From Polyangiaceae bacterium (GTDB lineage Bacteria > Myxococcota_A > Polyangia > Polyangiales > Polyangiaceae): 64,000 nucleotides of DNA. The notes below the pieces were generated by a model. The model was not told where the DNA came from and made no database searches. It was given only the letters and a program-made list of their open reading frames with translations. The stretch spans positions 1 to 64,000 of the forward strand of contig JAICUB010000006.1 of assembly GCA_025936045.1 (NCBI GenBank), in the 5' to 3' direction. Made by a program: the position numbers and the translations under genes. Each line of letters starts with the position of its first letter. The first letter of the stretch is position 1. Shown in pieces: positions 32,600 to 37,935 of this stretch.

Positions 32600-34141
32600 A
32601 TGGACTCCGAGCCCCCGATGAGCGGGCGGCGGGATATTTCGGTGACGCCGGTCACGGGGGCCGTGGCGGACTACGCGGGGCTGAAGGGCGGCTCCGGTCG
32701 CGACATCTACTTTCGCCCCGATCGTTATCAGCGGTCCGAGCTCGGGCCCATCGGCATCGCGGTAGAGCTCGCGCTCGAAGACGAGCGCCCTCGCTGCGAG
32801 CTCGTCGACGTTTCGCAGAACGGCGTTGCGTTCGTTTGGCCGCTCGGGACGAACGTCGAGGTCGGCACGATCCTAAACGAGATCGTCGTGAAGTTCGACG
32901 ACCACGAAGCGTTCCGCGGCGAGGCACGCGTCTCGTCCGTGCGCCACGAGGACGGCCGCGTGATCGTCGGCGCCTCGCTCGTCGATACCCTGATGAACAT
33001 CGAAGACGTGCTCCACCTGCGCGACGTGAAGGCGTGGGCCGGGAGCGGCGATACGCAGGGATTGGGCCTGAAAAAGGCCGCTTGGCGCACGCCGGGCCAG
33101 GAGCGCTTCAAGGCGCTCGTCGCCGACATGCGGCTCTTGCTCGAGGACGGACGTGAGGAGCTCGGCGAGCTCGAGGCCGTGCTGCCGTGGCACGTGACGC
33201 ACGGCGACGCGGACACACCCGCGCGCGACGCGCTGATCGAACGCGTGAGGAGCGAGTTTTGCACCGAGCTCGTCCAGCTCTCGAACGAGATCGACGCGGC
33301 GCTCCGGCTTGCGTCGCGCACCGAGCGCGACGCGCTCAACGCGTATTCGAATCGCCTTTTGCATCCGCTCCTCATGCAGTCGCCGTGGATGCACCGCGCC
33401 CGTCACAAGCCGCTCGGCTACGCCGGCGACTACGAGCTCATGAACGGGCTCTACGGCAACCACTTCTCCGGCTCGACGCTGTTCGCCAAGGCCGTCAACC
33501 TCGCCTTCGTTTCGACGCCCGCGGCCGTCGCGGTGCGCACGCGCAAGGAGCTGATGAAGCAGAAGCTCTCCCAGGCGCTCGATGGCGGCAAGCAGTCGGT
33601 GCGCATCCTGTCCATCGCGGCAGGCCCGGCGCAGGAGGTCTACGAGCTGCTCCAGGAACGCCACGAGCTGCCCGAATCCGTCGAAATCGTGCTTTACGAT
33701 CAAGACAAGCGCGCTCTCACCTTCTCCTACGGCCGCCTGAAGCGCCTGGTCGACTCGAAGTGGAAGGGGCAGGTGAAGCTCCTCCACCTGAACGACTCCA
33801 TCCGGCATTTGCTCAGGGATACCGCGGTGTTCGCCGGCCACGGGGCCTTCGATCTCGTCTATTCGGTCGGGCTCTTCGACTACCTGCAGATGCTCACGGC
33901 CGTCTCGCTCTGCCGAAATCTGTTCTCCTTGGTCGCGCCCGGCGGCACGCTACTCGTCGGCAACATGGTGCCCTCGAACCCTTCTCGCTGGTTCATGGAG
34001 CTGCACCTCGACTGGTTCCTGGTTTACCGGGAGCGCTCCGAGATGCTCGAGCTTTCCCGCCTCGCCGCGCCGAACGCGCGCATCGAAATCCTGGACGAGC
34101 CCACACGCGTGAACCCGTTCGTGTCGTTGACCAAGGAGTGA
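32600..34141 (+). CDS. PilZ domain fused to a PhcB-like SAM methyltransferase
   Basis: A 513-residue two-domain protein. Residues about 35-145 resemble PilZ, with the D/NxSxxG motif as DVSQNG and an Arg cluster (RPDRYQR) before it, though the RxxxR spacing is not exact. Residues about 165-513 match the methyltransferase family named for Ralstonia PhcB (fatty-acid methyl ester signal synthase): RARHKPLGYAGDYELMN, SAM motif VRILSIAAGPAQEVYELL, FDLVYSVGLFDYL. An in-frame ATG at 32519 exists, but codons 32519-32599 mostly end in A/T, unlike the rest, so ATG 32600 is preferred. The sensor gene follows directly. The product chemistry is inferred. Confidence 0.78.
   Translation: MDSEPPMSGRRDISVTPVTGAVADYAGLKGGSGRDIYFRPDRYQRSELGPIGIAVELALEDERPRCELVDVSQNGVAFVWPLGTNVEVGTILNEIVVKFDDHEAFRGEARVSSVRHEDGRVIVGASLVDTLMNIEDVLHLRDVKAWAGSGDTQGLGLKKAAWRTPGQERFKALVADMRLLLEDGREELGELEAVLPWHVTHGDADTPARDALIERVRSEFCTELVQLSNEIDAALRLASRTERDALNAYSNRLLHPLLMQSPWMHRARHKPLGYAGDYELMNGLYGNHFSGSTLFAKAVNLAFVSTPAAVAVRTRKELMKQKLSQALDGGKQSVRILSIAAGPAQEVYELLQERHELPESVEIVLYDQDKRALTFSYGRLKRLVDSKWKGQVKLLHLNDSIRHLLRDTAVFAGHGAFDLVYSVGLFDYLQMLTAVSLCRNLFSLVAPGGTLLVGNMVPSNPSRWFMELHLDWFLVYRERSEMLELSRLAAPNARIEILDEPTRVNPFVSLTKE
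34133..34138 (+). promoter_or_regulatory. AAGGAG ribosome binding site supporting a CTG start
   Basis: AAGGAG at the end of the methyltransferase gene, 6 nt before CTG 34145, the proposed start of the sensor kinase. Confidence 0.5.
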
Positions 34142-34144
34142 CGG

Positions 34145-36817: not shown

Positions 36818-37935
36818 CCTACGATGTCTTGTTCGTCGACGATGAGCCCGAGAACCTGACCGTGTTCGAGGCGGCCTGCGCGGGCCGCTTCAACGTCCTC
36901 ATAGCGAGCTCCGCAGCGCAAGCGCTCGAGCTTTTGCGACAGCACGTCGTGTTCGTGCTGCTGAGCGACCAGCGCATGCCGGGCATGACCGGTCTCGAGC
37001 TGCTCGAGAAGGTGGCGCGCGACTACCCGGACGTCGTGCGCATGCTGGTCACGGCGTATTCCGACACGCAGACGGCGATCGACGCGATCAACCGCGGGCA
37101 GGTGCGCCGCTACCTGAAGAAGCCGTGGCAACAGCTCGAGCTCATGACGGCGCTGGCGGACGGCGTCGAATACCATCAAATGCGCGCCAAGCTCTGCGGT
37201 CTCGAGCGACGGCTGCTCGAAACGGAGCGCGTCTATTCGCTCGGCGTCATCACGGCAGGCCTCGCGCGCGAGCTCGACGGCCCGGTGAGCTCGCTCAAGG
37301 CGCACGTCGCGACGGCGCGGGACCTCTTGCGCGCGACCCTCGAGGCGACGCCGCCCGACTCGAGCCGAGCGTCGCAGCGTGGCGCACTGCTCGACATGGA
37401 CGAGGAGCTCGGCGAGGCGCTCGTAGGCGCCGAACGCGCGCTCGACGTCGTGCGCGGCGTCGAAATCTCCACCGGTCCCAGCAAGAAGCAGGACGTGAAC
37501 GTGAGCGAAGTGCTGCGGCTCACGCTGCGGCTCCTGCAGAGCGAGCTACGCACGGCCGGCAGCGTCGAGATCGACGTGCACACCGTGCCTCCGGTTTCCG
37601 GCTCGTCGGCGCAGGTCGGGCAGGTGATGCTGAACCTGCTCGTGAGCGCGCTCGACATGATGGTGAACACGCCGCGACACCAGCGCGCTCTCTCGATCCG
37701 CCTGCGCGACGACGGCCCCTGGGTCATTTTCGAAGTGCGAAACTCCGGTTTGCCGTGCGGGAGCGAGCTCGAGAGCGACTTCAAGGTCGGCCAGCTCGAG
37801 CCGCAGCGCGGGCTCGGGCTCGCCATTTCGCGCTCGATCGTGCACGACCTCGGCGGCCACCTCGACACCGACATGAAGACGCCGGGCGTCGCCTTGCGCC
37901 GCGTGCGCCTGCCACACTCCAAGCGTCCGGCCTGA
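36814..37935 (+). CDS. Receiver plus degenerate histidine-kinase protein (PhcQ-like)
   Basis: A 373-residue cytoplasmic protein. The receiver is intact (LFVDDEPENL, phosphoacceptor Asp52 in LLSDQRMPGMTG, VTAYSD, YLKKPW). The following kinase-like half is broken: the H-box reads GLARELDGPVSSL, with Arg152 where His belongs, and the HATPase boxes are weak (LNLLVSALDMM, EVRNSGLPCG) though GLGLAISRSI remains. It is likely a phospho-signal receiver or scaffold for the double-kinase sensor rather than a kinase. ATG 36814 overlaps the sensor stop. PhcQ of Ralstonia has a comparable receiver-led layout. Confidence 0.8.
   Translation: MTYDVLFVDDEPENLTVFEAACAGRFNVLIASSAAQALELLRQHVVFVLLSDQRMPGMTGLELLEKVARDYPDVVRMLVTAYSDTQTAIDAINRGQVRRYLKKPWQQLELMTALADGVEYHQMRAKLCGLERRLLETERVYSLGVITAGLARELDGPVSSLKAHVATARDLLRATLEATPPDSSRASQRGALLDMDEELGEALVGAERALDVVRGVEISTGPSKKQDVNVSEVLRLTLRLLQSELRTAGSVEIDVHTVPPVSGSSAQVGQVMLNLLVSALDMMVNTPRHQRALSIRLRDDGPWVIFEVRNSGLPCGSELESDFKVGQLEPQRGLGLAISRSIVHDLGGHLDTDMKTPGVALRRVRLPHSKRPA

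Follow-up and report, generated by a model that had tools for sequence, protein, structure and literature searches.

The DNA examined here (hereafter the window) is a stretch of 64,000 nucleotides from a Polyangiaceae bacterium (GenBank assembly GCA_025936045.1, contig JAICUB010000006.1, positions 1 to 64,000 of the forward strand), and the analyses described below concern three adjacent genes within it (positions 32551-37935), which code for a methyltransferase, a membrane-bound hybrid sensor kinase and a receiver protein with a degenerate kinase. The best reading of these genes, and one that we consider reasonably probable, is that they constitute a self-contained module for lipid signalling that belongs to the Phc family in a wider sense, with the first two proteins as the likely synthase and receptor of a methyl-esterified lipid. 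Phc signalling has been described in Ralstonia and related bacteria, and the module of the window is probably a distant cousin of the Ralstonia cell-density system, making and sensing a fatty signal molecule. Because similar gene sets are widespread in the phylum of the window, the Ralstonia system is suggested to be one branch of a larger family. This is a more interesting result than the narrower claims of an earlier sequence-only reading of this DNA, in which the three genes were equated with PhcB, a fusion of PhcS with PhcR, and PhcQ.

Reference Phc loci were obtained starting from a Paraburkholderia plasmid, whose tblastn match resembles phcBSRQ. The sizes of its genes agree with those of published Phc proteins (PhcB 464-468, PhcR 368-374 and PhcQ 336-337 residues; PMC8578825), except for a short PhcR-like gene (134 residues as annotated). 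Named genomes were scanned with an alignment led by the plasmid protein, and the best 80 of at least 586 matching stretches were retained, nearly all of which are, by their titles, from Burkholderiales. In the resulting 81 loci (plasmid included), BLAST searches at 80% coverage identified 80 PhcB, 76 PhcS, 59 PhcR and 75 PhcQ, several of the gaps being contig ends; the records are unannotated and the phc genes were identified by their order, size and similarity. The phcR-like frame was observed to be short or fragmented in a number of Paraburkholderia and Burkholderia loci (L040, L044-L052, L097, L109, L055, L072, L082 and L094), and the last four of these contain no ORF (open reading frame) for which PhcR is the best match.

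The methyltransferase of the window is homologous to PhcB over nearly its entire length. In a profile-profile comparison by hhalign (a single-target comparison), the two were aligned almost end to end over 449 columns with an E value of 1.2e-76, and the methyltransferase domain is also matched by a profile based upon PhcB alone (Table 1). The membrane domain of the sensor is likewise related to that of PhcS (hhalign probability 99.6%, E 1.6e-23, with 177 of the 185 template columns covered), and the motif SPYYxGL is common to both. When a profile based only upon the PhcS membrane domain was applied to 4980 ORFs from the window and related loci, 61 of them were matched at E<1e-3, including that of the window (E 5.1e-10), and none of the reversed decoys. 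All 61 carry a membrane-domain label that derives from a profile including PhcS and the loci were chosen for such genes, which makes this count partly circular; for this reason the decoys and the E value provide the real control, and together with the PhcS-only profile they rule out a chance likeness of the two membrane domains. As both proteins are significantly homologous to the PhcB and PhcS of named Burkholderiales, the occurrence of a PhcB-like methyltransferase beside a PhcS-like receptor in a myxobacterial-type genome, as proposed in the sequence-only reading, is borne out.

The kinase-receiver-kinase organization of the sensor that had been described earlier was also recovered, the order of its Pfam domains being HisKA-HATPase-receiver-HisKA-HATPase. 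The N-terminal part contains several hydrophobic segments, about six as counted by eye on a hydropathy scan, and the protein can thus be described as transmembrane domain (TM)-histidine kinase 1 (HK1)-receiver (REC)-histidine kinase 2 (HK2). The phospho-accepting histidines in the H-boxes of both kinases and the Asp motif of the receiver are intact. Of its two kinases, HK2 is closer to the kinase of PhcS (hhalign E 1.3e-55, vs 5.8e-30 for HK1). In one locus (L180:4358-8568), the sensor is divided into separate TM-HK and REC-HK genes.

The distribution of these genes was examined in samples of 377 and 235 genomes from the phylum of the window and 398 genomes from that of Cupriavidus. The methyltransferase family was present in 84 of the 377 genomes (E<=1e-15), whereas 98 of the 235 contained the membrane domain (E<=1e-6). 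A methyltransferase match was found in five of eight genomes belonging to the genus of the window. Where the membrane domain was matched at E<1e-50, a methyltransferase was located within 6 kb on the same strand in 27 of 29 cases; in the other two, the locus is split between contig ends (G121) or contains a PilZ protein instead (G040, locus L201). A total of 78 stretches, including the window, were annotated, 12 of which had been chosen for a membrane domain without a known methyltransferase nearby (L025 and L219 refer to a single location). A methyltransferase match was present in 66 of the stretches (in L203, one of the alternative type), 55 of which contained a membrane domain as well; the full TM-HK-REC-HK sensor was found in 46, and 37 of the latter had a REC-HK gene in addition. 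In the Cupriavidus phylum, matches were found in 23 of the 398 genomes, seven of them full length and 16 covering only the methyltransferase domain; a same-strand sensor of the PhcS type was found near none of the 12 examined from the latter 16. In addition, evolutionary distances for the methyltransferase and for the membrane domain were correlated (r 0.88 for 72 loci and 0.85 for the 48 non-Phc loci), and none of 2000 permutations gave a value as high; the partial correlations given HK1 are 0.71 and 0.69, respectively.

The linkage also extends to the N-terminal domain of the methyltransferase, which does not figure in the sequence-only reading. This domain resembles PilZ, which was detected by Pfam (E<=0.01) in 30 of 52 aligned members of the methyltransferase family. 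The sequences DxSxxG and RxxxR are the canonical motifs for the binding of cyclic di-GMP by PilZ domains. The former is retained in the window as DVSQNG, and [DN]xSxxG is present in 39 of the 52 family rows; the RxxxR motif was not found upstream of DVSQNG in the window domain and is present in 16 of the 42 family rows scored. When 87 non-PhcB methyltransferases (window included) were compared, a membrane domain was present on the same strand within 6.5 kb for 46 of the 50 that possess the N-domain vs eight of the 37 without it (Fisher p 9e-12, the loci having been picked by their methyltransferase matches and their kinship ignored). The Arg22 residue of PhcB is reported to be conserved in Ralstonia, Cupriavidus and Paraburkholderia, to lie outside of the methyltransferase domain, and to affect signalling when changed (PMC6989110); as counted by eye, its position falls within the part of PhcB to which the PilZ-like N-domain is aligned.

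In a quick tree based upon 112 methyltransferase domains, PhcB (25 rows) formed one clade and the window was part of a separate clade of 33 rows, 31 of which are linked to sensors. In a more careful, unrooted tree for 48 chosen rows, a group of 39 rows (support 96/88) united PhcB, the locus L032, the sensor-linked rows other than L214, and the unlinked L029; 38 of the 39 are thus either sensor-linked or PhcB. The closest relative of PhcB in our sample is the methyltransferase of L032 (G004:C41:20000-27965), from a genome of the same genus as the window, which branched as the sister of PhcB with 100/100 support; closeness was judged on the sampled genomes and the best 80 of at least 586 reference stretches, and closer relatives in other phyla are possible. 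This enzyme has its N-terminus cut at a contig end and is accompanied by an unsplit TM-HK-REC-HK sensor. The possibility that L032 is a Burkholderiales contaminant in its genome was considered unlikely, because its tetranucleotide composition correlates with that of L021 from the same genome (r 0.94 vs 0.58-0.70 for six Burkholderiales loci) and also because its sensor has the HK1-REC-HK2 architecture.

The trees for the sensor modules, a check that had been suggested earlier, speak against a fusion of PhcS with PhcR, which we reject. A quick tree was built with 99 kinase domains taken from 27 sensors and 11 Phc loci; in this tree, all HK1 domains formed one clade (100) lacking any Phc member, and the kinase of PhcS branched as the sister of HK2 from L032 (100). 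The internal receivers similarly formed a single clade (100) without a Phc member in a quick receiver tree, and in a receiver tree that included linker columns, PhcR, PhcQ and the third protein of L032 were placed inside the third-gene family (87, which is not strong), separated from the internal receivers with a support of 100. The kinase and receiver trees were both computed quickly from selected rows, and some of the third-gene kinases gave rise to long-branch warnings.

The third protein was identified in the sequence-only reading as a match to PhcQ, which our results do not support: the PhcR and PhcQ receivers both lie within the third-gene family, and the C-terminal domain of PhcQ could not be detected in the window protein either by profile comparison (2.1%) or by a search with the PhcQ C-domain profile. 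Of the third proteins, only that of L032 matched this profile at E<1e-3 (E 1.1e-7). The third-gene family aligned with PhcR over 355 columns by hhalign (E 1.8e-59), the window protein itself being devoid of the phospho-accepting histidine and the DxGxG motif. Its H-box (AGLARELDGPV) contains an arginine in place of this histidine, DxGxG was not found in its kinase part, and its Pfam matches are to a receiver and, barely above the cut-off, to HATPase; it shows no DNA-binding domain. The position of this gene was observed to vary, being downstream of the methyltransferase, upstream of it or on the opposite strand (L022:10556-11677; L161, L163-L165 and others), and by eye the third-gene tree appears not to follow that of the methyltransferase. 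In view of the rejection of PhcB clade membership described below, the absence of Phc counterparts for HK1 and the inner receiver, and the missing PhcQ C-domain, it is most improbable that the window encodes a true Phc system consisting of a PhcB orthologue, a PhcS-PhcR fusion and PhcQ, despite its operon layout and domain homology.

Related receptors were also found beside a different type of enzyme. In five loci from one genus other than that of the window, a PhcS-type TM-HK-REC-HK sensor is adjacent to a protein in which PilZ is fused to a thioesterase with a weak resemblance to LuxD and to a methyltransferase of class I. Pfam identified PilZ and methyltransferase domains in the three fusions examined (L202, L203 and L204, with the PilZ of L202 under the cut-off), and the remaining two (L205 and L207) are homologous to them by BLAST (54 and 67%). 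The only solved structure matched by the middle domain is the thioesterase 1THT (whole-chain E 0.0013), an enzyme of the LuxD type. The fusion beside related receptors reads as a combination of acyl release and methylation, and it is a putative second kind of lipid-signal synthase. In another locus (L214:6613-11255), a related membrane domain is part of the same protein as a nucleotide cyclase, a domain for the binding of cyclic nucleotides and a tail that resembles a methyltransferase, and this protein adjoins a cyclic-nucleotide-binding methyltransferase. Together with the LuxD-like fusion, this locus fits a theme of synthases placed under second-messenger-type domains, each of these cases being weak singly and the fusion coming from a single lineage. 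In L201 (8198-10681), an open frame for a PilZ protein of 828 residues lies beside a PhcS-type sensor without a methyltransferase. Only the PilZ part of this protein was recognized; its C-terminal half has matches in 10 of 235 genomes, and an acetyltransferase-like identity for it was considered and dropped. A cyanobacterial plasmid (L041:7986-10605) contains a family methyltransferase next to a convergent kinase with a related membrane domain, together with a single receiver.

A number of observations weigh against a synthase-receptor pair for a methyl-esterified lipid. The window methyltransferase is just 22-26% identical to four PhcB proteins, and a single clade consisting of PhcB and the window trio was rejected by the approximately unbiased (AU) test (p 4e-7), the groups for which were named after the 112-row tree had been seen. 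Hence, the earlier claim of a PhcB-like enzyme stands with regard to homology, but not with regard to membership in the PhcB clade, to which it had been tied. Based upon this placement and the low identity, the substrate of the window enzyme may differ from that of PhcB. The N-domain alone is only weakly PhcB-like (hhalign probability 87%, E 4e-6; E 0.05 for the window with a PhcB-only N-domain profile), and four of the 50 methyltransferases with this domain (L029, L031, L176 and L219, of which L176 ends at a contig end) have no same-strand sensor. Weaker membrane-domain matches are less often linked to a methyltransferase (11 of 17 for E 1e-50 to 1e-30, two of seven for 1e-30 to 1e-20, and three of 59 below this), and 11 of 51 members weakly match the Pfam family MASE8; because of these two observations we regard the membrane input fold as being used more widely and as not specific to methyl esters. 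The methyltransferase distances also track those of HK1 (r 0.77 for 72 loci and 0.78 for the 48 non-Phc loci), and all of these correlations ignore the shared descent of the genomes. Lastly, the match of the fusion proteins to 1THT is weak, two stretches tested alone being not significant, and Acyl_transf_2 is reported by Pfam in two of the five members.

Two other explanations bear upon these observations. The enzyme could make a small-molecule signal other than a fatty acid methyl ester (e.g., a methylated polyketide, a hydroxy acid or another carboxylate) that is sensed by the sensor. The placement outside the PhcB clade and the low identity are in accordance with this, as are the sequence of motif I (AAGPA in the window vs GCGPA in PhcB) and the receptor relative in L201 that stands beside a PilZ protein without a recognized methyltransferase. 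However, PhcB and the window enzyme belong to one almost wholly sensor-linked group (96/88), and the alternative synthase near related receptors contains a weakly LuxD-like acyl thioesterase domain, and we consider such a signal unlikely. The second explanation is that the methyltransferase is a CheR-like adaptation enzyme, methylating the sensor or another protein without the production of a diffusible signal. The window methyltransferase alone matched no solved structure under E 0.15 and its Pfam methyltransferase matches, like that to PilZ, are under their cut-offs; with the family profile, the top-ranking solved structure is that of a chemotaxis methyltransferase (E 0.0063), and 17 of the 52 family members match the S-adenosylmethionine (SAM)-binding domain of CheR in Pfam (best E 7.4e-7). 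This similarity is limited to the SAM-binding fold, whereas the homology to PhcB, which is described as a signal synthase (PMC8578825, PMC11960443), covers nearly the whole protein, and no chemoreceptor domain was found in the sensor by Pfam. A role in adaptation is thus quite improbable, and a synthase-receptor pair for a methyl-esterified lipid remains our preferred reading.

For the product, the ligand, the order of phosphotransfer, the role of the PilZ-like domain and the output of such a pair, we infer the following scheme. The methyltransferase would make the methyl ester of a fatty acid, possibly a 3-hydroxylated one, and the PhcS-type membrane domain of the sensor would detect it; PhcS itself has been described as the sensor of 3-hydroxymyristic acid methyl ester, with autophosphorylation at His230 (PMC11960443). 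Through the HK1-receiver-HK2 chain, phosphate would then reach the receiver domain in the third protein. As this protein possesses neither a DNA-binding domain nor intact kinase motifs, it probably acts by binding a partner, by analogy with PhcQ, which is reported to bind and stabilize PhcA (PMC13320629). The amount of signal made is probably modulated by the PilZ-like domain of the synthase.

The ORFs and Pfam matches agree with the earlier description of three adjacent genes at this place, encoding a PhcB-like methyltransferase, a membrane hybrid kinase and a receiver-led protein. Their arrangement on one strand, with tight spacing and an overlap between genes 2 and 3, is operon-like as predicted from the sequence. 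For the methyltransferase gene, GTG 32564 is a more likely start than 32600, and indeed the most likely one, because GGAG and GTG also occur at the corresponding site of the congener locus L021; an earlier ATG (32519) and the later one (32600) are possible alternatives. The sensor gene is in the same frame as the methyltransferase gene. Its first common start codon (ATG, GTG or TTG) is GTG 34223, and since homology extends upstream of this position, CTG 34145 is the likely start. The module matches a congener genome with 75% identity, which indicates that these are not chance ORFs, and in the genome (86.6% complete) the methyltransferase and the membrane domain each have a single significant copy. 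This genome yielded no 16S sequence, and its assignment to Myxococcota is deduced from 11 MYXO-CTERM matches, vs none in 14 control genomes. No NCBIfam family exceeded its cut-off among the matches listed, which for the sensor and the third protein were the best 25 of 167 and of 101. None of the six neighbouring genes annotated by Pfam is obviously part of the module. The coordinates of the various features are summarized in Table 1.

Table 1. Coordinates of the module, its domains and neighbouring genes in the window, and of the fusion proteins in other loci
Feature	Location	Strand	Evidence
GGAG ribosome site and GTG start of methyltransferase gene	32551..32566	+	Sequence; GGAG and GTG at equivalent site in L021; homology to L021 begins approximately here
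Gene for PhcB-like methyltransferase (525 aa), PilZ-like domain at N-terminus	32564..34141	+	ORF, Pfam, profiles, trees
PilZ-like domain, residues 56-132	32729..32959	+	Pfam PilZ E 5.4e-4, 20.6 bits, under cut-off of 22.5
Linker and class I methyltransferase domain	33014..34138	+	PhcB-only profile E 4.8e-47; hhalign of family profile E 6.5e-75
Membrane hybrid sensor kinase, TM-HK1-REC-HK2	34145..36817 (about)	+	ORF, Pfam, homology
PhcS-type membrane sensing domain, motif GGLASPYYAGL	34160..34735	+	hhalign to PhcS membrane domain; PhcS-only profile
HK1, H-box ANVTHELKTPL, no Phc counterpart	34790..35464	+	Pfam, HK tree, motifs
Internal receiver, ITDLMMP, no Phc counterpart	35663..35995	+	Pfam, trees, motifs
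HK2, H-box GGLAHEIKNPL (limits approximate)	36017..36790	+	Pfam second HATPase stretch, hhalign, HK tree
ATGA overlap of sensor stop and third-gene ATG, 4 bases	36814..36817	+	Sequence
Receiver and degenerate kinase protein, 373 aa	36814..37935	+	ORF, Pfam, hhalign, trees, motifs
PilZ-thioesterase-methyltransferase fusion proteins	L203:3468-6536, L202:2063-5611, L204:3393-6212, L205:2271-6170, L207:7341-11216		
AMP-binding enzyme	28255-30585	-	Pfam
Radical SAM protein with TRAM domain	30014-31540	+	Pfam
ThiS	32093-32572	-	Pfam
VanW-like	37998-39413	+	Pfam
YkuD L,D-transpeptidase	39489-41309	+	Pfam
Semialdehyde dehydrogenase	41320-42465	-	Pfam

With regard to the evolution of these systems, we tentatively propose, as a possibility falling somewhat short of an even chance, that Phc quorum sensing arose by transfer and trimming from an older family of modules for lipid signals, which is widespread among the myxobacterial phylum and consists of a PilZ-controlled synthase, a PhcS-type receptor with HK1-REC-HK2 and a receiver-pseudokinase as the output. 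In this view, PhcS has lost HK1-REC, PhcR and PhcQ are duplicates of the third gene, and the synthase has been exchanged in other lineages, e.g., for the fusion of PilZ, LuxD-like thioesterase and methyltransferase. Such a loss from PhcS, with PhcR and PhcQ derived by duplication, would be the simpler account; the trees are unrooted and the reverse direction is possible. If the reading of the three genes as a lipid-signal module holds, fatty acid methyl esters or their close lipid kin would be candidates for signalling between cells in a phylum noted for its multicellular behaviour, an origin for PhcR and PhcQ would be suggested, and the production of the signal would be tied to a PilZ-like domain. 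Among the papers listed in searches of a library of open literature, none joining Phc to myxobacteria was found, as judged by titles and the beginnings of abstracts, and a term search of a survey of signalling in Myxococcaceae (PMC7694542) gave neither "Phc" nor "methyl ester".

Of the known proteins, the LuxD-type acyl thioesterase (PDB 1THT) shows a weak match to the middle domain of the fusions and is absent from the module of the window. L032 provides a natural intermediate: similar to the window, it has a TM-HK-REC-HK sensor and a third protein with a receiver and a kinase-like part, but it differs from the window in having a methyltransferase that is sister to PhcB, an HK2 that is sister to PhcS, and a third protein in which the C-domain of PhcQ is matched. 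In comparison with the PhcBSRQ system of Ralstonia, Cupriavidus and other Burkholderiales, the window differs in that its methyltransferase lies outside the PhcB clade and retains in its PilZ-like N-domain a DxSxxG motif that is absent from the nine PhcB rows examined, its sensor contains an extra HK1-receiver portion (in the Phc sensor, the membrane domain is followed by just one kinase), and in place of both PhcR and PhcQ there is a single third protein with a degenerate kinase. Nevertheless, both systems consist of a linked methyltransferase, a PhcS-type membrane sensor kinase and a receiver protein without a DNA-binding domain; their methyltransferases align nearly end to end, and the membrane domain and kinase of PhcS are homologous to the membrane domain and HK2 of the window sensor.

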